From: an uncultured Clostridia bacterium
GTDB taxonomy: Bacteria > Bacillota > Peptococcia > Peptococcales > Peptococcaceae
Assembly: GCA_944391625.1 (NCBI GenBank)
Contig: CALXUG010000011.1
Coordinates: 1 to 64,000, forward strand
DNA: 64,000 bases
Direction of reading: 5' to 3'
Position numbers and translations under genes: made by a program. A model generated the notes under the pieces. The model worked only from the letters and a program-made list of their open reading frames with translations. It did not search any database and was not told where the DNA came from. Shown piece by piece: positions 30,436 through 44,922 of this stretch. Each line of letters begins with the position of its first letter. The first letter of the stretch is position 1.

Positions 30436-32934
30436 TTACGCTGTATGTTCCGTACGAGAAATAATCTCATTTTGTAAATTCGGGGACAATTCTGTAAAGT
30501 ATGCACTGTAACCAGCCACACGAACTACCAGGTTTCGATATTTTTCTGGATCTTCCTGGGCAGCCAATAAGGTTTCCCTGTTGATAATATTAAATTGAAT
30601 ATGATACAGCTTTAAGTCACACCAGGTTCTGATTAACTGCATCAGCTTTTTGGTACCCTCGTCCCCTGCTACAGATGATGGACTCAACTTCATGTTCAAT
30701 AATCGCGTACACCGATTTCGATACTGTACATTTTTAGTTTTATAGTTCGAAATCATATTAGTTGTTGGCCCATGACTATCGCAACCATGAGATGGAGAGG
30801 AACCTTCTGACAATGGTAGACCCGCGTTTCTGCCATTTGGTGTTGCTCCAGTTTCTTTCCCAATAAAGATATGAATGGTTACTGGAACCATACGCATGGA
30901 AACAATTTCTCTTGGCTGAACTGGTACCAGATTATTTAAATAATCAAAATGCATTCTATCCATTTCTTTTGCGATTTCATCCACATACGGATCATCATTC
31001 CCATATTTTGGCGCATTCAAACACATCTGACGAATGGCTTCATAACCTTTAAAATCAGCATCCACAGCATTAATCAGCTCATCCATTGTAATTTTTTTGT
31101 CATCAAAAACCAATTTTTTCACTGCTGCCAGAGAATCTGCACCTGTACCATAACCAGTCATATCACAGAATTTTTCGCGCAGACCATCTTCACCTGGATC
31201 TACATAATCATTGATATCCTTGCACTGTTCAAAACATTTATCATGTAACATAGACGTTAATGGAGCGGCCAGGAATTTTGGTTTTACCACATCCATAGCA
31301 GTCTGTTGAACAACAACATGATTCAAGAAATACAGATGCTGCTTCTTGTATGCTTCAAAGAATTCATCAAATGTTTTAAAGTCTCGTGGATCACCAGTTA
31401 CTGGCCCATACTGAATATTGTTGTATTTTACAGAACGCCCATTGTGTAATGTCATTTCCACCATCGCACCTACATTTACAGTACCAGCTGGGTGGATATA
31501 GGTTTCTTTATTTAGTACACGGAATTCTGCACAACTGCAGATTACATAGTCCAAAGCATCTTCATATTTAATTCCTTTACCTAAATACAATGGTATAATT
31601 TCTTCATCGTTGAATAATTTTGGATAGCCCTGCCCATCTTTAATTACTTCCGCTACCGCTTTCAAGAATTTATCCGGTGTTTTATTGTGAATACGAACTG
31701 CTAAGTCTGGATAATTGATTGGAATCCCTTTTTTGGAATCCAGAATTACATAAGACAATTCATTAGTTGCATCAAAACCATCTTTTGTTTGACCACCAAT
31801 GGTAACACCTTCAAAGTGGGCGTACCCTTCCGAGAATGCACCACCGGCTGGGCTTACTAAGATTGTCATTGCTTCGGACATATTTACCCACAAACTTTCA
31901 AACAATGCTCTAGCTTCGTCTCTGGTGATTCTGCCATCCTCAATATCCTTTTTATAGTACGGATAGAACATCTGATCCAAGCGACCTAAGCTTAAAGAAG
32001 CACCTACCAACTGTTCCATACGAGTGAACATATAGGTAAACCAATGAGACTGCATAGCTTCTTTAAAGGTTCTGGCCGGATTTTCCGGTACCCATTCACA
32101 GATTTCTGCAATTTCCAACAGTTCTGCTTTTCTACTTTCGCTCTGTTCAGTTTCAGCCATTTCGCGAGCCAGTTTGGCATAACGCTGTGCCCAGATAGAC
32201 ATTGCATCACAAGTTACAATACAAGCTTCCAAGAAATACCCTTTCTCTGCCAGCTGAATTGGTTGATCCTGCATTTCATCTAGTCTCTGCTGCGCCTTTT
32301 CTCTCAATCCTTTCAGACCTAATTTCAGAACTTTTTCATAGTCCTGTACCCAGTTCTGGGAAGAACGAGTATTGCCACCAGCAAAAATCATATTTTGCTG
32401 TTTGTATAAATTATCTTCTGATTCACCAAACAAAATTCTTCTGGTCTCATCTGGCAATGCCATCGCATAGGCTTCCGGCCAGGATTTATCTTTCCAATAT
32501 GGCGCAATTTCATTTGCCATCACTTCATAGTCTTCTTCGGTATAGTAATATGGAGCATCTGGACGGTCGCACATATCTCTGCCTACAGTATCCAAGTAAG
32601 CGCCGTCTACTTCTGGATACAGCATCCCGCAGCGACCTGGCTTGCTTTCACCACGACCAACAATCAAATCATCTGGGCCAATGTATAATGGCGTATTTTC
32701 TGTTACATGTTTCATTGCTAACGCCCAACGCAACACCAACGGTCTACGTTCATTCATTCTCATCCCTTCGGTGAATAAACGAGCACGGTCTGTACACAGA
32801 TAGATTGGAGCTTTTCGAATTGCATCTAAACGTTCCATAGTACGTTTTCTGCTCTCATCTACATTTGTTAAAATACCTGCTTCCAACCATTTTTCCTGTG
32901 GAGTTAAGATTAAATCATTACATTGACATGGCAT
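30436..32934 (-). CDS. Glycyl radical enzyme 2, Cys-x-Glu lyase/dehydratase type, substrate unknown
   Basis: Second PFL-fold radical enzyme, 832 residues from the ATG at 32934 (AGGAGG 9 nt upstream; the ORF opens at 32943). Key residues: thiyl Cys468 and Glu470 in ICSCAEFR; radical Gly808 in VRVAGYSAY; Arg190 and Gln193 in NTRSSQNW; Arg681 in SMRMVPVT; Phe374 in AHFEG; ATPNGRNA loop. Cys468/Glu470 fall at exactly the numbers I recall for Bilophila isethionate lyase IslA. However, Phe replaces its Trp374 and Val replaces its Phe682, so the substrate is probably different. It is collinear with GRE1 throughout, with differences near the active site (SCAEFRVLNK against GCAEHRVPNF). Followed by a DASS carrier. 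Decarboxylase, dehydratase and C-S lyase activities all remain possible. Confidence 0.9.
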   Translation of the reverse strand: MPCQCNDLILTPQEKWLEAGILTNVDESRKRTMERLDAIRKAPIYLCTDRARLFTEGMRMNERRPLVLRWALAMKHVTENTPLYIGPDDLIVGRGESKPGRCGMLYPEVDGAYLDTVGRDMCDRPDAPYYYTEEDYEVMANEIAPYWKDKSWPEAYAMALPDETRRILFGESEDNLYKQQNMIFAGGNTRSSQNWVQDYEKVLKLGLKGLREKAQQRLDEMQDQPIQLAEKGYFLEACIVTCDAMSIWAQRYAKLAREMAETEQSESRKAELLEIAEICEWVPENPARTFKEAMQSHWFTYMFTRMEQLVGASLSLGRLDQMFYPYYKKDIEDGRITRDEARALFESLWVNMSEAMTILVSPAGGAFSEGYAHFEGVTIGGQTKDGFDATNELSYVILDSKKGIPINYPDLAVRIHNKTPDKFLKAVAEVIKDGQGYPKLFNDEEIIPLYLGKGIKYEDALDYVICSCAEFRVLNKETYIHPAGTVNVGAMVEMTLHNGRSVKYNNIQYGPVTGDPRDFKTFDEFFEAYKKQHLYFLNHVVVQQTAMDVVKPKFLAAPLTSMLHDKCFEQCKDINDYVDPGEDGLREKFCDMTGYGTGADSLAAVKKLVFDDKKITMDELINAVDADFKGYEAIRQMCLNAPKYGNDDPYVDEIAKEMDRMHFDYLNNLVPVQPREIVSMRMVPVTIHIFIGKETGATPNGRNAGLPLSEGSSPSHGCDSHGPTTNMISNYKTKNVQYRNRCTRLLNMKLSPSSVAGDEGTKKLMQLIRTWCDLKLYHIQFNIINRETLLAAQEDPEKYRNLVVRVAGYSAYFTELSPNLQNEIISRTEHTA

Positions 32935-33027
32935 AATAAACATCCTCCTTTATAGATAAAAAAGTTACACCTCATCATCACAATCATCAGATGATGAGAA
33001 TTATTTGTTCTTTGCTTATGAACACAG

Positions 33028-33538: not shown

Positions 33539-33597
33539 AAAAATGCCTGTTGCTTTTGTAAAATTATCAAAACTTTACAAAAACAACAGGCATTTTT
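33539..33597. terminator. Bidirectional terminator
   Basis: AAAAATGCCTGTTG-TTTTGTAAA pairs with TTTACAAAA-CAACAGGCATTTTT. It serves the small rightward gene and, on the other strand, the end of the ECF operon. The interval 33598-33726 has nothing else recognisable. Confidence 0.85.
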
Positions 33598-33726: not shown

Positions 33727-36369
33727 TCAACATTCTTGTTCTTCCCTGCATTCCACCAGCCCATACTTGATTTTCACCCGCTCCAGCTTTTCCAGCATGG
33801 GTTCGGAAGCAAACCACAAAAAAAAGACAGTAGCAGCGGCATGAATACAATCCATGGGAAAGCCTGTGATATAGTAGGTCAATAACAGCTTCCAGTTTAA
33901 GCTGCTGCTCCACAGCAATGCGGAGGCAGGGTTCATAATGCCGCCGTAAATCAAAATAGCTGCCAGAGCGCCGAACAAGCACAATGATATTTTTTGACGG
34001 GATAACGGACCCCGCGAAAATAATAAACCTGCCAAAAAACCGCTGATACCCATGGCAAACATCTGCCACGGCGTCCAAGGCCCTTGCGAAAACAAAACAT
34101 TGGAGGCCAGCATGGTCATTGCACCAACCAAAAATCCTGTTTCTGCGCCCAAGGCAACCCCGGCAATGATGGTAAACGCCAGCACCGGTTTAAATTGGGG
34201 CAGCATATAAAACACCGCCCGTCCGGCTACACCAATGGCGCAAAGCACAGCAATCACCACCAATTCTCTGGCCTGGGGCTTGCGGCCTTCAAACAGCAGA
34301 AAAAACGGCAGCATACATTCCAGCAATACCAGCATGGCAATCAAATAATATTTCCTGCCTTCCAGATAGTATTGCCCCCACAGCAGCGTAAGGGGAATGA
34401 AAAGAAGGATACAGAGCACCGCAGCCTTTGTCCGCTTGGGCAGCTTTTGTTTTTTGATTGACTGCTGTCCTTGCAGCTTGCCGGTGCAGCCGACAAACAC
34501 CAATATTGCTGCCAAAAACAACACATACAGCCAAATCTGCCGAAAGGACAGCATGGTAAAACCATTGGCCTGAATAAGCGTTGTCATATCAGTAAAGAAA
34601 AGAAATCGAATCAATAATATTACAATCACCGCGCCGGATAAAACAGCGCCGCACCGTTTCCACCAGGGCAGCTTTTTGTCCGGTTTGGATGACGGCCCAT
34701 TTGTCGGAGCCGAAACTGTTATTTGCGGCAGTTCCGGCGGTGTCGGCGGCTGACCGCCGCAGGCCAAAATTACGTCATCAGTTGTAACTGCATCCGGCAG
34801 CATGGTGCGAGCCATGCGATTAGCCGCAGTGGTGTAAAAACGATTGCCGGAGAAAAATTTCCGCGGCGTATCTTCGGCAACAATGGCACCATCAAAAAAT
34901 AATGCGCAGCGATGGGCATAACGGGCGCAAAATTCGATATCGTGACTTACCATCACAATGGTAATCCCCTTTTGCAATAACTGCTGCAAAATCTGCGCCA
35001 ATGTTTGCGCAAACTGGGCATCTAAACTTTTACTCGGTTCATCCAACAATAAAATTTGCGGCTCTAATAATAAAATTTTTGCCAGCGCCGCTCTCTGCTG
35101 CTCACCGCCGGAAAGGTCATACGGGTGACGCTGCAATAAATGGGACAAACAGCACAGCGATATTACCTGCTGCAAGCGGATTTGCTGCTCTTCTTGCGGT
35201 AAACTGCTTGTTGCAAATAATTCCTGTAAATCCTCCCACACCGTTTTTCCGATAAACAATGCCTGGGGATTTTGCGGCAGTAAACCAACGGTCCCTGTCA
35301 GTTGAATCTTGCCCCTGTCCGGTTTTAAAAGTCCTTGCATTAATTTCAAGCTGGTGGTTTTGCCGGTGCCGTTGCTGCCCAACAAGGCCAGAAATTCTCC
35401 CTGTTTTACGGTCAGCGACAACCCTTTTATCACATCCGGCGCTCCCTTGTCATAACCATACCAGACTTCCTCCATCTTTATCACTGCAGGCCCCTCAGAA
35501 TGCGGTATGGATTCGGGCGGCAATGGTTGCAGCTCATGGTCTTCTGCATAGCACTGCAGCCAATCTCGGCCATCCCGCACAGTCAGCGGACAGGGCAAAT
35601 CATTTTCCACCGCAGCCCATATCTGCATGGCAGCGGGCATGGCCTGAAACATGTGGTGGCCTGCATCTTTCAAAGATTGTCCCACCTGCTGCGGCGTTCC
35701 GGCATAGAGCAAGCTGCCCTGCTCCATCACAACAACCATGGTAGCCAACGCCATCACTTCTTCCAGATGATGCTCTGTGATGATAATGGTGGTACCCAAC
35801 TCCCTGTTGATTTTACTCAGCATAGACAAAAAATCAGAAGCGGCAATGGGATCCAGCTGGCTGGTGGGTTCATCCAAAATTAACACATGGGGCTGCAATA
35901 CCATAACAGCCGCCAGATTCAAAATCTGCTTTTGCCCGCCGGAAAGGGTCTGCACATCTTTATAAAACCAATTCTGTATGCCAAAAAAGCTAGCCATCTC
36001 TGCCACTCTGCGGCGAATTTCAATGCTGGGCACTCCCAGGCTTTCCAAACCAAAAGCCAGTTCATGCCATACTTTATCGGTTACAATCTGGTTATCCGGC
36101 GACTGCATGACAAAGCCAATCTGCTGGCTTTGCATCCGCTGATCCATTTGCTCTATGGGCTGTCCCTCAAACAGAATGGTTCCGGTTCGTTTTCCATGAG
36201 GAGCCAGCAATGGTTTCAGCTGGCACAGCAGCGTTGATTTGCCGCTGCCCGAAGAACCGCACAACACCACAAAAGCGCCTTGCTCTATGGTCAGGTCCAT
36301 CTGCTTTAAGGCAGGCTGCTGTTGTTGGGGATAGGAAAAACTTAGCCCTTCAATTTGATAGGTGTGCAT
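33727..36369 (-). CDS. Single-chain ECF transporter: two ATPases plus membrane S-like part
   Basis: An 880-residue energy-coupling-factor protein. Domain 1 (about 1-240) has Walker A GSSGSGKST, signature LSGGQKQ and Walker B LILDEPT; domain 2 (about 300-510) has GSNGTGKTT, LSGGEQQ and LLLDEPS. After a linker (APTNGPSSKPDKK) the C-terminal 330 residues form eight or more spans; the last part (ARELVVIAVLCAIGVAGRAVF to FAMGISGFLAGLLFS) resembles an S component. Natural ECF systems usually split these into EcfA, EcfA' and S. The start at 36369 has GAGGGAGGG upstream and overlaps ecfT by 28 bp. Corrinoid uptake is inferred from the upstream B12 riboswitch and DUF4430 partners. Confidence 0.88.
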   Translation of the reverse strand: MHTYQIEGLSFSYPQQQQPALKQMDLTIEQGAFVVLCGSSGSGKSTLLCQLKPLLAPHGKRTGTILFEGQPIEQMDQRMQSQQIGFVMQSPDNQIVTDKVWHELAFGLESLGVPSIEIRRRVAEMASFFGIQNWFYKDVQTLSGGQKQILNLAAVMVLQPHVLILDEPTSQLDPIAASDFLSMLSKINRELGTTIIITEHHLEEVMALATMVVVMEQGSLLYAGTPQQVGQSLKDAGHHMFQAMPAAMQIWAAVENDLPCPLTVRDGRDWLQCYAEDHELQPLPPESIPHSEGPAVIKMEEVWYGYDKGAPDVIKGLSLTVKQGEFLALLGSNGTGKTTSLKLMQGLLKPDRGKIQLTGTVGLLPQNPQALFIGKTVWEDLQELFATSSLPQEEQQIRLQQVISLCCLSHLLQRHPYDLSGGEQQRAALAKILLLEPQILLLDEPSKSLDAQFAQTLAQILQQLLQKGITIVMVSHDIEFCARYAHRCALFFDGAIVAEDTPRKFFSGNRFYTTAANRMARTMLPDAVTTDDVILACGGQPPTPPELPQITVSAPTNGPSSKPDKKLPWWKRCGAVLSGAVIVILLIRFLFFTDMTTLIQANGFTMLSFRQIWLYVLFLAAILVFVGCTGKLQGQQSIKKQKLPKRTKAAVLCILLFIPLTLLWGQYYLEGRKYYLIAMLVLLECMLPFFLLFEGRKPQARELVVIAVLCAIGVAGRAVFYMLPQFKPVLAFTIIAGVALGAETGFLVGAMTMLASNVLFSQGPWTPWQMFAMGISGFLAGLLFSRGPLSRQKISLCLFGALAAILIYGGIMNPASALLWSSSLNWKLLLTYYITGFPMDCIHAAATVFFLWFASEPMLEKLERVKIKYGLVECREEQEC

Positions 36370-37238
36370 GCCTTTCCCTCCCTCTGATTTAACAATACCG
36401 GTGTTGCACACAAACTAAGATATACAACCTGCGCCAATACAGCGGTCGGTGTTACCGCAAGCTGCTGCACGGTAGGATAATAGCGCCATGTAAACAAGCC
36501 CGCTGCCCAGCTGACGAAAATGACTGCTCCGCAGCCAATCAGCCACACCAGCATTTTTTTATCCCGCTTCTCCATTCGATAGATAGAAAAAGCTGTTCGC
36601 CCCGGCAGGCCATAGCCTCTGCTTTTCATGCTGTCTGCCGTTTCAATGGCAGTTTCCAGCGCCCAGGTTATCAAGATAGAGCAAACGCCCATGGCGTATT
36701 TCATGCGTTGAAAAACGGAGCCGGTTCCCATATCCCGCCCCACACAGCGCTGCGCTTCTATCACCGTTTGCAGCTGCATTTTAAAACGGGGAATAAACCG
36801 CAGCGTCATGGACAGCACCAGCGACAACGCCGGAATGATGCGCCCAAACAGGTAAATAAACTTATCCGAACACATCACAGCAGAATAACAGACAAACCAA
36901 AGAATCACGCAAGCCAGCATAACAGCAGCGGCAAATCCGTATACAATACTTTCCAAAGTTAACGGATTGCCTGTAGGCAAATAGCACAGGATGGTGATGC
37001 CCTCATGGTTAAAGACCGGATTCAGCAACGCCGCCAACAGCAGCATCGGCACCAAAAACACTAATGTGCGGCCAACGGCCTTTTTGCCTTTCAGCTGCAA
37101 CGCATACACCAAAGCAGCCGCTAACGAAATACCCAGACTGACAGGATGCCAAAAACACATGGCAAACAGCAGCATCAGCATAAAATATATAAAATTGACT
37201 ACCGGATGGTATCCCGAAAAGACATCTCTCCCATCCAT
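36342..37238 (-). CDS. ecfT: ECF transporter transmembrane subunit EcfT
   Basis: The 298-residue transmembrane coupling subunit of an ECF importer, about six to eight spans. It carries the cytosolic coupling-helix motifs of EcfT: RFIPRFK followed by EAQRCVGRD, and the family-defining DSMKSRGYG. Its 3' end overlaps the start of the ATPase gene, so the two are translationally coupled. No strong ribosome site is visible before the ATG, suggesting coupling to the upstream DUF4430 gene (30 bp away). Confidence 0.9.
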   Translation of the reverse strand: MDGRDVFSGYHPVVNFIYFMLMLLFAMCFWHPVSLGISLAAALVYALQLKGKKAVGRTLVFLVPMLLLAALLNPVFNHEGITILCYLPTGNPLTLESIVYGFAAAVMLACVILWFVCYSAVMCSDKFIYLFGRIIPALSLVLSMTLRFIPRFKMQLQTVIEAQRCVGRDMGTGSVFQRMKYAMGVCSILITWALETAIETADSMKSRGYGLPGRTAFSIYRMEKRDKKMLVWLIGCGAVIFVSWAAGLFTWRYYPTVQQLAVTPTAVLAQVVYLSLCATPVLLNQREGKACTPIKLKG

Positions 37239-37268: not shown

Positions 37269-38075
37269 TTACACATCTTCACTCATATCCCGTCCTACAT
37301 CTGCGCCCAGGTCACAGCTATACACCCAGCAAATCACATCGCCATTTTGCAAAGTGTACTGACTGCAACCATAATTGGGAAACCAGTCATTGACTTTGTA
37401 CATCCAGCCCGATTGGGCGCCTGCGTCAAACTCGTACAGATTGGCAATCCCTTCAATGTAAGCGCTGTTGTAGCCCGGTGTATCTTCATACTCCATGTGT
37501 ATTTTATTGGCTTTGCAAACACGCTGCAGCACATCAAAGACCGTTTCACCCTCCGAAAAAGAAATGGTTGTAGCCGGCAAAATCCACCCGTCCGACGGCA
37601 CCAGTTCTTTTTTGTCCGGATCGCACAAGTCCAGCTGTTTAACAAGGGCAGCGCAGGAGATAGAAATGGTGCAGCTGTTCTCTGTTGCTGGTTGGGCAGT
37701 CTGCTCCGGCACTGTCGCTGTGTTATCGGTTACAGGCGCTGTACCTGCTGCTTTTTTATTATCTGTATCCGTTTCAGCTGCTGTCTCTTTTCCATTTTTA
37801 ACATCGGTTGCAGGCTTGGTATCTGTTTCAGATTTTGCTTCCTGCTGAATAGTTTTTGATTCTGTTTCTGTTTTTGCATCTGTCCCGGCTTCTGTTTCCG
37901 ATGGCTCCGACTGGATACCCACTGTCTGCTCATCTGCTGTGGCAGCCAGCATGGCATCATCTGGCTGTTCTGACGCAGCAAAAAATGAATTGCCGCCCAA
38001 ACCAAACAACCCAAGAAGCGCAACCGCTATCACAACAACTGACAGCAGAAAAGTTTTTAATTGCTTTTGCGACAC
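37269..38075 (-). CDS. Secreted DUF4430 protein (transcobalamin beta-domain-like)
   Basis: A 268-residue exported or membrane-tethered protein: hydrophobic N-terminus (TFLLSVVVIAVALLGLFGLGG), a long Thr/Glu/Lys-rich disordered stretch to about 130, then a DUF4430 domain (about 132-262) with TISFSEGETVFDVLQRVC, the GIANLYEFDAGAQSGWMYKVND core and YTLQNGDVICWVYSCDLGAD. DUF4430 shares its fold with the C-terminal corrinoid-binding domain of animal intrinsic factor/transcobalamin. It lies 15 bp after the alpha/alpha-barrel gene and 30 bp before ecfT. Role as a corrinoid-binding surface protein is inferred. Confidence 0.85.
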   Translation of the reverse strand: MSQKQLKTFLLSVVVIAVALLGLFGLGGNSFFAASEQPDDAMLAATADEQTVGIQSEPSETEAGTDAKTETESKTIQQEAKSETDTKPATDVKNGKETAAETDTDNKKAAGTAPVTDNTATVPEQTAQPATENSCTISISCAALVKQLDLCDPDKKELVPSDGWILPATTISFSEGETVFDVLQRVCKANKIHMEYEDTPGYNSAYIEGIANLYEFDAGAQSGWMYKVNDWFPNYGCSQYTLQNGDVICWVYSCDLGADVGRDMSEDV

Positions 38076-38090
38076 AACCTCATCCCCTCG

Positions 38091-39209
38091 CTAAACAAAC
38101 AATCTGCCGCTTAATCCGGCAGTCCCATACCATAAACCAACTTGCAGCGCAGGCTGGGACAATGCGGCAAGCATCTGTTTGTTATCCGGCTTTTCTTCCC
38201 GCTGACCGGTTGCAGCATTTGCTTTGGCATTATCAGTCATATCATACAAACTGCTTTTTCCCTCCATGGCTCGCAGAGCAGCGGTCATTCCGTATAATCC
38301 CTGTTCCGTAGCCATCCGGCTATTGCCCTGGCCATGTTTGGTATGCAGAAAACTGCCGTCGGCCTGTCGATAGGTCAGCAAAAAATCCAAAATGCTGTTG
38401 CCCTGTTTCACAAACCGAGCATCTTCCAAATCAATACCCAATGCGGACAAGCCTACAATCACCTGCACCGCACTCTCTGAGCTGTCTCCGTAGCCGCCGT
38501 CAGCTTTCTGCAGCTGAGATAAACAATCCAATGCTTTCTCTGTTGCTGCTTTTACTTTGGGCTGATCTTGATAAGGTACCAGCGCCTGCAGCACCATACC
38601 GGTAATATCCGCACCGGCCTGACCGGCACCGCCTGCCGCCGTTAAATTCCAGCCGCCGTTATCCAACTGTCGGGACAAAATATAATCAACATACATCTGT
38701 CGGCTGGCCTGTTTTTTGGCAGATGCGTTAACCGGCATGGCGTATTCCTTACTGTCCAGCGCAATCAACGCCCAGACGGCACCATTGATGCCCTGCTGAA
38801 CAGTTTTGTCAAAGTCGCCCAACGGCGTCAACAAATTGTATCCGCCCACATTGGCCGGATTGGCTCCAATGGCGCTTAACGCCAAAATAACCCGAGAATA
38901 TTCTGTATATTTTTTAGTATGCAAAATCCCATTCTTTTCTTTTACATAGGTCGCAACGGTTTGATAATAGTTATCCTGATATGCCTGTGAAACAGCATAC
39001 TCACTGCGCACCAAACCAAGCACCGCCCATTCCCCGCCAATAACGGCAATCTGCGGCTCCGGCGTAACACCCAGCACATACGACGCGCTTTTTTCTATAG
39101 CCTGCTCCAATTGCGCGTCCATCACCGCCGCCGTGGCCGGAAAACTGATACTCCACAGCAGCACCAACAGTAACACTACACATAGTTTTTTGTTTTTGAT
39201 ACTATTCAT
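38091..39209 (-). CDS. Secreted prenyltransferase-fold protein (intrinsic-factor alpha-barrel-like)
   Basis: A 372-residue exported protein with a signal peptide (KKLCVVLLLVLLWSISFPATAA) and repeated helical pairs of the squalene-cyclase/prenyltransferase alpha6-alpha6 barrel: NGGWNLTAAGGAGQAGADITGMV, DGGYGDSSESAVQVI, DGSFLHTKHGQGNSRMATEQG. Intrinsic factor and transcobalamin use exactly such a barrel as their N-terminal domain. Start at 39209 with AGGAGGAGGGA upstream; the frame opens at 39299. The next gene supplies the matching DUF4430 half. No catalytic DxDD of cyclases is seen, favouring a binding role. Confidence 0.82.
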   Translation of the reverse strand: MNSIKNKKLCVVLLLVLLWSISFPATAAVMDAQLEQAIEKSASYVLGVTPEPQIAVIGGEWAVLGLVRSEYAVSQAYQDNYYQTVATYVKEKNGILHTKKYTEYSRVILALSAIGANPANVGGYNLLTPLGDFDKTVQQGINGAVWALIALDSKEYAMPVNASAKKQASRQMYVDYILSRQLDNGGWNLTAAGGAGQAGADITGMVLQALVPYQDQPKVKAATEKALDCLSQLQKADGGYGDSSESAVQVIVGLSALGIDLEDARFVKQGNSILDFLLTYRQADGSFLHTKHGQGNSRMATEQGLYGMTAALRAMEGKSSLYDMTDNAKANAATGQREEKPDNKQMLAALSQPALQVGLWYGTAGLSGRLFV

Positions 39210-39338
39210 AAAAAGTCCCTCCTCCTGTTCATACTGCAAACCACCCATGTCTTTGCCTGCAAATTTTTTAGTCAACTGCCACAGCGGGCAAGCTAACATC
39301 GTTTATGCCAACTCACCCGCTGAACAGAGTATTAATCC

Positions 39339-42300
39339 TTATTTATTGTTATTGTCTTTGGCAACTGTCTGCATATACCGCATCAGAATGGCGGCTGCTT
39401 CCGCTCTTGTCACAGTGCCTTGCGGCGCCATAGTTGTTTTTCCCCGTCCTGTTATCAGACCTTCTGCATTGGCCCAGGCAAGGGCAGGCGCAGCCCAGCT
39501 GCTGATTTGTTCTCCATCAGCAAAGCGGCTTAAATCGGCAGTTTTGCTGGTGTCATAATTTTTATACTGACTGTAACGCAGCAATACTGTTGCCAGCTGC
39601 TCTCTGGTCATGCCATCTTCCGGTCCAAACTGATTTTTACCATAACCGCTGACCAGATGATTGGCGCTGGCCCATAAGATAGACTCGGTGTACCAGCTGT
39701 TATCGGCCACATCGGCAAAAGAATTGCTTGTTGTTGCAGTTGGCGTTCCATCCAACCGATACAGCATGGTAACCAGCATGGCTCGGTTGACCTCTGCCTC
39801 CGGCGCAAACTGATTGTCATCCACACCGCGCATCAAATCCTTGCTGTAGATATAATGAATGGCTTCCTGCGCCCAATGTTTCTCCGGCACATCTGCAAAA
39901 GGCAGCGGACTGGTTAACCGTTGATATTCCTGCTCGGCTGCCACCAACTGATCATAATTTTCCACCAGTTTCTTTTCTTCCTCACTCAGTTTATCGTATG
40001 CTTCACGGGCAGCTTTCAATGCTTCACCGCTGTTTTTATCAATAACGCCGATAGAACCAATCAAATCCGTCACGCCAGTGCCGGTGGTTGGCAGTTCCGC
40101 AGGTACTTTACCGTCTTCCGGTTTAACAGCACCGCCGCCTCCGCCAATATCTTCACCCAGCGCGCTGGTATATTTCCAGCAAACAGTATTCACGTCTTCT
40201 GCAAGAATATCTGCTGCTCCCACTTCCGGGAACACTCCATCACAGGTAAACATCCAGCCCGAACCACTGCCCGCATCAAATTCGCCTAACGGTCCATCCG
40301 GTGTCTCAATAGATGTCAAATAGAAATTGCCGGTTGTGCTGCCTGTATACGCTGCTTCCATATGGTAAGCATCCAGCAAGCGCAATGTTACCTCTGCTAC
40401 AGTATCACCAGCGGCATATGGCACGTCCACCGACGCAATGATAGTCCCCAACGCAACAGGGCTATTGGAGCCAGCCGGCCGTTTGGCGTTGTCCACAACG
40501 CTCATGGTGATGCGGCCGGCAATGGGCTGACCATCCATATCAAAATCGCTATCACCATCAGTATCCCCGCCACCACCGGAAGAACCGGAGCTGGTTACAG
40601 TTAAAGTTACTGTATAAGCAGGACTATCAGCCTGCCCATCGTTGGCTTTGAATACTAGCTTGTATGTGCCAACTTCACTTGGTTTAAACTCATAGTCTGC
40701 GTTTATAGTTTGCGCAGCTGCTCCGTTGACAGAAACGGTATAAGTTAGTGCATCATGATCAACATCTTTGAAAAACTCATTCACATATGCAAAATACGGT
40801 TTTCCTAATTCAATGGATTCCTGTGCAGAATCAGCACCAACTAATTCCGGCGCACGATTGGCAGATGGCTGTTGACCAACGGTCACTGTTATATCCGGCA
40901 AAATACTGCGGGTATAATGAACAGTATTCGCAGCCATATTGGCACCTGTACCAAAATCATCTAATCCGCGATGATTTTTTTCATAAATTAAATCACTTCC
41001 CCATAAATCACCAGAAATATAGCCATTATTTAATAAATATTCTCCCTGTCCATCATCTGGAAGTACAATAGAGACATAATTTGCTTTCGTAATTAATTCA
41101 TACTGTTCTCCCTGTTCTGGATACACACGATTATCCATTAAAGAATAGGATATTTTTGCCGCTGAAGTTGTCCATTCAGGATTGTTCTTATCATCATAAT
41201 CCCAACATGGATTATATATTCCAGCCATTTTCCCAACTGGAATATGCAGCCCATCTAACATTACACAAACTTTATCGCCTGCTGCCAATGCTTCGCCTGG
41301 GTTTGTACGGTTATAGACTCTCACATCTACTTTTTCACCGCGCACTACCTGATACGCAGATGATGTGGTGGAATTATTCGATTTTGTTGCCCGAATCAGA
41401 TTATTACCTGCTGCAATCTTTGCCGTATAACAACTGGTAGCGCTATCTTTTTGCAATTCAGTCCACTGTTCACCATTATCACGGCTGACCTCCAGTTTAC
41501 TGATGGTCACAGCACTGCCGGTCGTCACAGTTGGTTTTAACTGCAACTCACCTTCATTGCCTGTAAAATACAAGGTATCAAACTCACTGTCCCAAGGCTG
41601 TGCATGTTTTTTATCGTAAGTAAGCGCATTGCTGCTGTAGCACTCAATGCCAAAATCTACATCATCAGCAGTATCGCCTACTTGTACCACTACCAATCCT
41701 GTACGTTTAGGGTCGCAAGCACCATAAACACCTTGCTTTGCAATATCTATCGCATCATAAGTCACTTCAAGAATTGCAGTACCTTCTTGTTTTGCTGTGA
41801 TATCCAGCCAATTACCAGTGGCATTTCCATTACCGGAAATCACAGGATCTATAGAAATTACATTTTTACCGGACAATACTTTATAATGAAAATCCGGCTC
41901 AATCATAATATCACTGCTACTAATCTGCCAGCTGCGATAAGCCCGCAAACGGAATTTTTCACCTTGCTGCAATCGTAAATGATTTTGCTTATTAATGTTC
42001 AATAATACATTTGCTTCTTTATATGTTTCTACAGTCGGTTTTACATTGGAGTACAAATCATTATCTGTATAAACAACCGTAAGCTGATCACCAGCATTTA
42101 TATAGCCAGCTTTTGTGATATAGTGTTCCTTACTAATTCGATATGTCAAACTATTAGCATTGGTTGCAAACTGATAGGTAACTGTACCGTCCGCATTATT
42201 AATAGTGTCTATTGACTCTATTTTTTCACTGACATAATTTTTAGTCTGTGTAAACAACTGTACCGCAGCGCCCTCACTAGCGGTAATACTGACTGTTGCT

Positions 42301-42392
42301 GCTTCTGTTTCCGCCATTGCCGCTGTCGGCAGCAGGGTAAACAGCATGGCCATCAGCAATAGTAGTGCGACTAATTTTTTCTTTTGCATCAT
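39339..42392 (-). CDS. S-layer-anchored protein with DUF4430 domain
   Basis: A 1017-residue surface protein. After the signal peptide (LVALLLLMAMLFTLLPTAAMA) comes a long Ig-like beta region (about 30-530), a cadherin-like unit (about 535-610, DVDHDALTYTVSV), a Gly/Ser-Asp linker, a DUF4430 domain (about 625-750, ending GWMFTCDGVFPEVGA and VNTVCWKYTSALGEDIG), a short helical FIVAR-like segment (LSEEEKKLVENYDQLVAAE) and three SLH repeats (about 830-1005, first FADVPEKHWAQEAI). SLH repeats bind secondary wall polymers. It is the first gene after the B12 riboswitch and would display the putative corrinoid-binding domain on the cell surface. AAGGGG precedes the ATG. Confidence 0.88.
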   Translation of the reverse strand: MMQKKKLVALLLLMAMLFTLLPTAAMAETEAATVSITASEGAAVQLFTQTKNYVSEKIESIDTINNADGTVTYQFATNANSLTYRISKEHYITKAGYINAGDQLTVVYTDNDLYSNVKPTVETYKEANVLLNINKQNHLRLQQGEKFRLRAYRSWQISSSDIMIEPDFHYKVLSGKNVISIDPVISGNGNATGNWLDITAKQEGTAILEVTYDAIDIAKQGVYGACDPKRTGLVVVQVGDTADDVDFGIECYSSNALTYDKKHAQPWDSEFDTLYFTGNEGELQLKPTVTTGSAVTISKLEVSRDNGEQWTELQKDSATSCYTAKIAAGNNLIRATKSNNSTTSSAYQVVRGEKVDVRVYNRTNPGEALAAGDKVCVMLDGLHIPVGKMAGIYNPCWDYDDKNNPEWTTSAAKISYSLMDNRVYPEQGEQYELITKANYVSIVLPDDGQGEYLLNNGYISGDLWGSDLIYEKNHRGLDDFGTGANMAANTVHYTRSILPDITVTVGQQPSANRAPELVGADSAQESIELGKPYFAYVNEFFKDVDHDALTYTVSVNGAAAQTINADYEFKPSEVGTYKLVFKANDGQADSPAYTVTLTVTSSGSSGGGGDTDGDSDFDMDGQPIAGRITMSVVDNAKRPAGSNSPVALGTIIASVDVPYAAGDTVAEVTLRLLDAYHMEAAYTGSTTGNFYLTSIETPDGPLGEFDAGSGSGWMFTCDGVFPEVGAADILAEDVNTVCWKYTSALGEDIGGGGGAVKPEDGKVPAELPTTGTGVTDLIGSIGVIDKNSGEALKAAREAYDKLSEEEKKLVENYDQLVAAEQEYQRLTSPLPFADVPEKHWAQEAIHYIYSKDLMRGVDDNQFAPEAEVNRAMLVTMLYRLDGTPTATTSNSFADVADNSWYTESILWASANHLVSGYGKNQFGPEDGMTREQLATVLLRYSQYKNYDTSKTADLSRFADGEQISSWAAPALAWANAEGLITGRGKTTMAPQGTVTRAEAAAILMRYMQTVAKDNNNK

Positions 42393-42962: not shown

Positions 42963-42999
42963 AAAAAAACACGCCAGCTTTCCGCAAAAAGCTGACGTG
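42963..42999 (-). terminator. Riboswitch expression-platform terminator
   Basis: On the minus strand CACGTCAGCTTT pairs with AAAGCTGGCGTG, followed by seven T, about 40 nt after the B12 aptamer. Ligand-dependent termination is the natural reading. Confidence 0.85.
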
Positions 43000-43039
43000 C
43001 CCGTTTTTTCGCACGACAAATAAGGCTCTCGCCCTGTCT

Positions 43040-43451: not shown

Positions 43452-44714
43452 TTAATCGTCGTAATCTTTATCCCAATCTAAAATTTTTCCGTTAAGCCCA
43501 TTAATTTCATATTCATATTCTACTCCGTTTACATGGAAATCCACTTCATACTTATAGTGTCCATCATCACGGTCTAATTCGGCTTTAATCCACTCTACAT
43601 GCTTCTGTGCTATACCGGCATGCTTCAAGGCAATCCGTTTGGCTTCATCAACGCCGATTACTTTATCTTTTTCAGGAGTATAGGCTTCTGCATCGTAGTC
43701 AAAATCCAGAATTTTTCCGTTTTCTGCATTGATTTCGTAGTCGTATTCACCTTTATTGGTGTAAAACTCGATTTCGTACACTTTGCGGCCATCGTCATAA
43801 TCAGCGCGGGTTCTGACAAAAGTAACATCCTTTTCTCTCAAATCGGCATCTTCCAACGCAATATCCTTAGCTTTTGCCAAACCAATATCCTTCACTTCGG
43901 CAGAAGGACGTTTCCAGTTGTCAATATCGTAATCATAATCCAACACTTTGCCAGTTTCCGCATTAATTATGAAGTCATATTCTCTACTATCTGTATAGAA
44001 TTCCACATCATAAACCCAACGGTTATCCCGATAGGTTAATGCCGCTGTCAGGAAGGTGACATCCTTTTCTAAAAGACTGACATAACCCAAGGCAATATTT
44101 TTGGCAGATTCTCGGCCAATATATCCTTTATCAATCTCATCCTGCTCTGTAACAAAGCTGTCAGCATCTGTCACAGTATAATCGCCAGTTAATGTAACAA
44201 CTTTATTTTTGGCATCCCAGCTTACATCGTTGCCCATCAGTTCTCCAATGGCGCGCAATGGTAAATAGGTACTGCCATTATACAAAATTGGATTTAAACG
44301 AGCGCCGTTTGCAGCATAAAACTTGCGTTCTTTGCCATCCACAATAATGGTGAAGTCAGGCCGTTCTTGTACACGGATATCTTTTCTGCCAATGTTGGGA
44401 TTATCCCGATTAGAAGAAAGGGTATCGCGGGTGCCGCTAATGGTAATGGTTTTATTTTTTTCATCCCAGTTTACATTTTTGCCCATCAATTCTCCAATGG
44501 CGCGCAATGGCAAATAGGTTCTGTCTTCATACAAAATAGGATACACTGCGTTTCCGCTGGATGTTTTAAAGTCAACATCATTGCCGTCCATCACAATGGA
44601 AAAATCGGCGCGAAGCTGCGCATCTGCAGTAAATACCGTATCTGCTGCAAAGGCAGGCATTGCCAGCGCTGTTGCTAAAACAGCTGTGGTAAGCATTACA
44701 ATTGGCTTTTTCAT
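43452..44714 (-). CDS. Secreted protein with copper-amine-oxidase-like and PepSY domains
   Basis: A 420-residue exported protein: signal peptide (KKPIVMLTTAVLATALAMPAFAA), two copper-amine-oxidase N-like repeats (about 30-100 and 105-170, each with LPLRAIGELMG and a following beta hairpin), then three PepSY repeats (about 190-415), each with an IALGYVSL/IALEDADL/IALKHAGI helix and a YEFYT-GEYDYEINAENGKILDFDYD strand pair. PepSY domains bind or inhibit peptidases at the cell surface. GAGGGG is upstream of the ATG at 44714; the frame opens at 44732. A TTGTAT-N17-TAGAAT promoter may lie about 75 bp upstream. It is monocistronic. Confidence 0.88.
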   Translation of the reverse strand: MKKPIVMLTTAVLATALAMPAFAADTVFTADAQLRADFSIVMDGNDVDFKTSSGNAVYPILYEDRTYLPLRAIGELMGKNVNWDEKNKTITISGTRDTLSSNRDNPNIGRKDIRVQERPDFTIIVDGKERKFYAANGARLNPILYNGSTYLPLRAIGELMGNDVSWDAKNKVVTLTGDYTVTDADSFVTEQDEIDKGYIGRESAKNIALGYVSLLEKDVTFLTAALTYRDNRWVYDVEFYTDSREYDFIINAETGKVLDYDYDIDNWKRPSAEVKDIGLAKAKDIALEDADLREKDVTFVRTRADYDDGRKVYEIEFYTNKGEYDYEINAENGKILDFDYDAEAYTPEKDKVIGVDEAKRIALKHAGIAQKHVEWIKAELDRDDGHYKYEVDFHVNGVEYEYEINGLNGKILDWDKDYDD

Positions 44715-44922
44715 AAAACATTCCCCTCTCATTGTTCCTTGTGTTAAATAGTGTCTAGCTATATACTGATTCTACCATAATTATGTTAGTTATACAATAA
44801 ATATTTTACTAAAACAAAATTAATCATCACAAATTCATCACATATTGGTGCAAACCATCTTTGCCTCAAAGCTACACTCCATATTCTATCTTATTCTCAT
44901 AGAAAGCAAAACAACTTGCTAC

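Follow-up and report, generated by a model that had tools for sequence, protein, structure and literature searches.

An operon headed by a cobalamin riboswitch in an uncultured Clostridia bacterium is, in our judgment, likely to encode a cell-surface system that captures corrinoids and relays them to a CbrT-type ECF importer. Two of its adjacent genes, coding for a secreted alpha/alpha toroid protein and a DUF4430 protein, correspond as a pair to the one-chain B12 carriers of animals, and by analogy this pair has a good probability of working like a carrier. We base this reading on the genes, the riboswitch, the predicted folds, the CbrT-like S part of the importer, the conserved gene order and the natural fusions of the two domains found in relatives. 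The DNA analyzed (hereafter, the window) is a stretch of 64,000 nucleotides (positions 1 to 64,000 of contig CALXUG010000011.1, assembly GCA_944391625.1, family Peptococcaceae in the GTDB), and coordinates refer to it unless another locus is named.

The operon appears to be a single transcription unit on the minus strand, running from 43278 to 33545. It begins with a cobalamin riboswitch aptamer (RF00174, 43037 to 43278, minus strand; cmscan 40.7 bits, gathering score 31.5), the only cobalamin riboswitch that the genome search found. Behind the aptamer, as the expression platform, lies a strong hairpin resembling an intrinsic terminator (42967 to 43002, minus strand; a 16-pair stem plus T-run), which was also recovered in the folded RNA. 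Five genes follow on the same strand, 5' to 3': an S-layer-anchored protein of 1,017 aa (39339 to 42392), with Ig/cadherin-like parts, a DUF4430 domain and three SLH repeats; the secreted toroid protein, or alpha half (38091 to 39209, 372 aa), devoid of SLH repeats; the DUF4430 protein, or beta half (37269 to 38075), with an N-terminal membrane anchor and a long low-complexity linker; the ECF transporter T component (36342 to 37238), assigned from a weak match to the CbiQ model TIGR02454 (E = 8.2e-6) and its conserved place in the operon; and a fused ECF A-A-S protein (33727 to 36411, over the cut-off of TIGR04520), with the S component at 33727 to 34344. A terminator-like hairpin (33545 to 33591, minus strand; a 20-pair stem with a T-rich tail) closes the unit.

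A sequence-only reading of this region had proposed that adjacent toroid and DUF4430 genes lie between a B12 riboswitch and an ECF importer. Both genes proved real, with open reading frames on the minus strand, a PF14478 match and a signal peptide on the toroid, and only 15 bases separate the stop of the toroid from the start of the DUF4430 gene. Their position between riboswitch and importer also stood, but the gene of the 1,017-aa protein intervenes as well between the riboswitch and the pair. Outside the unit, upstream of the riboswitch (43452 to 44732), is a gene whose product contains three PepSY domains and two domains of the copper amine oxidase N1 type, and a glycyl radical enzyme adjoining the operon (30436 to 32943) scored over the cut-off of NF048011 ((2S)-3-sulfopropanediol dehydratase).

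To place the operon among its relatives, we scanned GTDB genomes and obtained 468 toroid relatives, 80 loci of which were analyzed. These came from Oscillospiraceae, other Clostridia, Paenibacillus, Fusibacter, Sedimentibacter and others, and named carriers of related loci include Flavonifractor plautii, Paenibacillus, Sporobacter termitidis, and Clostridium viride. Among loci with enough sequence to be scored, the counts were 62 of 67 for DUF4430 directly downstream of the toroid, 53 of 60 for ECF-T and 45 of 51 for a CbrT-like S component. The riboswitch RF00174 was detected in 26 of the 34 related loci tested (14/20 in a first set and 12/14 in a second). We consider this order to be beyond chance because it is kept across many genera. 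A plasmid of Latilactobacillus curvatus (CP117684.1, 592 kb, classified as mobilizable; locus L156, 7917 to 13559) has the same gene order and a CbrT-like S part, with an LPXTG anchor replacing SLH on the toroid protein; a search of this locus for a cobalamin riboswitch found none. The order of toroid, DUF4430 and B12 importer is kept from Clostridia to Lactobacillaceae, and the locus in the window is a real and conserved operon, probably for corrinoid uptake.

The toroid ORF was called as 38091 to 39299 (minus strand). We favored the start at 39209, implied by the sequence-only reading, because AGGAGGAGGG closely precedes the ATG there and the sequence that follows encodes a signal peptide. 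By sequence, the likeness of the protein to squalene-hopene cyclases is weak (its SQHop_cyclase_C match is near the cut-off), and Pfam scans reported no match to PF01122, the model of the animal carriers. Searched against the PDB as single sequences, neither the toroid nor the DUF4430 protein returned a carrier match, and a toroid profile searched against the PDB gave no transcobalamin match. The mature toroid has one cysteine and lacks the disulfide bonds of the toroid in animal carriers, which hold three or four (four in rat transcobalamin; PMC11107200). AF2 predicted an alpha/alpha toroid, a fold common to many other families, and in structure searches with the toroid alone terpene cyclases and sugar epimerases were at least as close as the carriers.

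Since squalene-hopene cyclases come closest to it both in Pfam and in structure searches with the single domain, the toroid might be taken for a terpene cyclase- or prenyltransferase-like enzyme with an incidental DUF4430 neighborhood. We give this almost no credence, and it is largely refuted by the loss of the catalytic box. As the first inspection of the sequence had held, the cyclase residues are missing: the DxDD box reads G-A-D-I-T in the window toroid, and relatives have D-x-D-[ILVM]-T at this place, DxDD being gone in 70 of 71 and found in one. Secretion, the usual wall anchoring and a place beside DUF4430 and the B12 importer that is conserved as far as Lactobacillaceae also argue against a cyclase.

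The DUF4430 protein, whose soluble domain spans 37284 to 37586, is a clear member of PF14478 (E = 3.8e-22) and compares with the beta domain of human transcobalamin (5no0) at TMt 0.74/0.71. Transcobalamin beta was also the best PDB match by sequence of the DUF4430 profile, a weak match (E = 0.064) that is collinear over ~80 positions. Among 61 split-type DUF4430 proteins (region 37284 to 37660 in the window), cysteines recur ~22 residues before the domain start (53 proteins) and ~91 residues after it (55 proteins), a strongly conserved pair that possibly forms a disulfide; an extra YGCS cysteine is present in 43 of the 61.

To model the pair with AF2, toroid and DUF4430 were joined as a single chain by reading the in-frame TAG stop of the toroid as Gln. 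Each half had a pLDDT of ~97, with an uncertain relative placement of the domains (pTM 0.60). When this pair was compared by Foldseek with 350,542 PDB chains, transcobalamin, intrinsic factor and haptocorrin occupied ranks 1 to 15 with both halves aligned (best E 5e-8), and rank 16 was an isolated transcobalamin beta domain. A fusion that a relative naturally encodes as one chain, folded separately (pLDDT 94, pTM 0.76), gave the same picture, with 15 carrier chains on top (best E 1e-10). The two-part corrinoid-binding complex that had been suggested from the letters is partly supported: the match to the two domains of the animal B12 carriers was borne out, the carriers being the best PDB matches and fusions of the two domains being present in neighboring genes of relatives.

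In the ligand-free models, the closed sandwich of the holo carriers is absent and the halves are open or shifted. The ligand-free joined pair differed from holo carriers by a whole-chain rmsd of 12 to 17 Å (with a second aligner, 7.2 to 7.5 Å over 345 to 352 residues at best), and the natural fusion, modeled equally free of ligand, by ~22 Å in a non-holo placement. In transcobalamin, B12 binds the beta domain first and the alpha domain then closes over it; the animal domains also bind B12 when separated, and they associate only in its presence (PMC11107200, PMC5599065). Because the models are ligand-free and the animal domains associate only with B12, the missing closed arrangement neither supports nor refutes a carrier-like assembly. 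What the predictions hold against the capture-and-relay reading is that the AF2 halves are not in the holo arrangement, that the toroid alone does not seem specific to carriers, and that PF01122 has no match.

Anchoring differs between the two halves. In the split form, SLH repeats were found on 68 of 71 toroids and a hydrophobic N-terminal anchor on 60 of 61 DUF4430 proteins, so that the predicted arrangement is usually a toroid in the wall layer and a DUF4430 protein on the membrane. The toroid of the window has no SLH repeats, like its nearest relatives (L038, L045, L046), and this absence of the anchor that most relatives have counts against capture and relay. In the 1,017-aa protein, SLH repeats (PF00395, E = 2.1e-32) accompany a DUF4430 domain at residues 649 to 750 (PF14478, E = 2.2e-10), and it is a possible second DUF4430 partner for the toroid. 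In relatives, the gene at its place often encodes a single chain that joins toroid and DUF4430; the fusions in these neighboring S-layer proteins have the animal order, toroid first, at many loci, with linkers down to ~40 residues. Six loci (L061, L074, L080, L099, L104, and L126) encode S-layer proteins of up to ~3,000 aa that contain multiple DUF4430 and toroid domains, in which DUF4430 sometimes comes immediately before the toroid.

As for the importer, the sole PDB sequence match of the S part of the A-A-S protein was CbrT (6fnp_A, E = 4.2e-10, ~170 residues). CbrT, known from ECF-CbrT of Lactobacillus delbrueckii, is a B12-specific ECF S component that imports cobalamin and cobinamide (PMC5997447). 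This relationship points to a CbrT-like importer that would take up cobalamin and for which cobinamide is, by analogy, a possible extra substrate. Unlike ECF-CbrT, the operon in the window has a dedicated fused A-A-S module and extracellular candidate binding proteins. On contig C53 of the same genome (locus L150, 5265 to 6186), a small DUF4430 gene overlaps a second S component, again with CbrT as its sole PDB match (E = 2.2e-9) and with neither toroid nor ECF module alongside. Searching 149 genomes sampled from the phylum for relatives of this second S component, we found three further matches (L153, L154, and L155), each immediately preceded by a small DUF4430 gene, and in L153 the pair lies below a cobalamin riboswitch. 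DUF4430 and CbrT-like S are adjacent in several genomes and therefore travel together with or without a toroid.

These toroid-free pairs, in the bacterium's own genome and in three others, one of them under a cobalamin riboswitch, bring up a serious rival, although we consider it unlikely: corrinoid capture would be right but the partners would differ, the toroid pairing with the S-layer DUF4430 and the membrane DUF4430 serving the CbrT-like S component by itself, as its lid or docking protein. Known beta-only B12 binders (PMC11107200), the location of the toroid/DUF4430 fusions in the S-layer protein and the usual anchoring of toroid and membrane DUF4430 in different layers would all fit it; the adjacency of these two genes in 62 of 67 loci, their closeness in the window and the lack of a wall anchor on the window toroid itself speak for the pair instead. 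A second alternative keeps the surface system and changes the ligand, the same folds being reused for a cobamide precursor, a haem-like tetrapyrrole, cobalt or a glycan. Beta-grasp domains of the SLBB superfamily bind varied ligands (PMC1796856), toroids are versatile, and cobalt is mentioned in the names of some models matched by the ECF module, but with a cobalamin riboswitch on the operon, a CbrT-like S component and the carriers as top structural matches we regard another ligand as very unlikely.

The cobalamin physiology of the bacterium was sampled by family searches of its genome (2.97 Mb, 96% complete). Methionine synthase is present in the MetH form, together with two radical SAM proteins that bind B12, and no CbiF was recognized in these searches. 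The bacterium thus uses cobalamin and probably lacks synthesis of the corrin ring. The only match to the CbiF-type model, TIGR01465, was rejected as CbiF, as it corresponds to the uroporphyrinogen methyltransferase beside hem genes. One FecCD-type importer is present elsewhere in the genome; the operon may therefore not be the sole uptake route, and this importer is a further observation against the capture-and-relay reading.

If the operon does capture and relay corrinoids, low intracellular cobalamin would let the riboswitch permit its transcription, and two secreted modules would be made as separate chains, the toroid as the alpha half and the membrane-tethered DUF4430 beta-grasp protein as the beta half, with the S-layer-anchored DUF4430 protein as an outer capture point. 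By analogy with transcobalamin, B12 would dock first on the beta half and the toroid would then cover it like a lid, after which the S component would receive the corrinoid for import. We infer that the proteins bind corrinoids, that the two chains assemble upon B12, which way the relay runs and the steps from capture to hand-over. More tentatively, and with somewhat more doubt than confidence, the corrinoid may be the glue of a two-chain trap, made of a wall-layer toroid and a membrane-tethered DUF4430, that relays B12 across the Gram-positive wall to ECF-CbrT, the two-gene state being ancestral or parallel to the one-chain animal carriers.

The idea of a two-domain B12 scavenger is not new, because Burroughs et al. 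(2007) predicted Gram-positive B12-scavenging proteins of this kind, as well as their transfer to animals (PMC1796856). The transcobalamin-like SLBB clade, as described there (PMC1796856; PF14478), comprises secreted DUF4430-type domains, fusions with toroids and operons with CbiO/CbiQ-like (ECF) components, for which B12 scavenging was proposed. The window has a secreted PF14478 domain in an operon with an ECF ATPase and T component and near a toroid, and the pair belongs to this predicted bacterial clade. The part of the account that we could consult stresses fusions, whereas here the chains and their anchors are separate, and it contains neither riboswitch control nor the CbrT identity of the S component. 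We add the separate chains with different anchors as the usual form beside the importer, the control by a riboswitch, the CbrT identity and the structural ranking. A search of open-access literature, which leaves most subscription papers outside, turned up no study that had put a bacterial member to an experimental test.

With transcobalamin, intrinsic factor and haptocorrin, the top 15 Foldseek matches, the pair shares the combination of toroid and beta-grasp domain. Judged by strict features, it falls outside the family of animal carriers, since it consists of separate chains, does not match PF01122 and lacks the disulfide pattern. Its DUF4430 half is also anchored to the membrane, and the pair adjoins an importer, whereas the animal carriers work with an endocytic receptor. 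BtuG and BtuH of Bacteroides resemble the window proteins by role only, in capturing B12 at the surface for an importer, and differ in serving the outer-membrane transporter BtuB (PMC6143338, PMC8941943).

Compared with BtuG/BtuB of Bacteroides, the extramembrane capture of corrinoids by Gram-positive gut bacteria is poorly known. If our reading is true, this operon would provide Gram-positive gut bacteria with a B12 carrier related to the human one, and the 2007 proposal that animals got transcobalamin-like proteins from Gram-positives could be tested with two small proteins. The two-chain form and its tie to a known B12 importer would make the idea directly testable.
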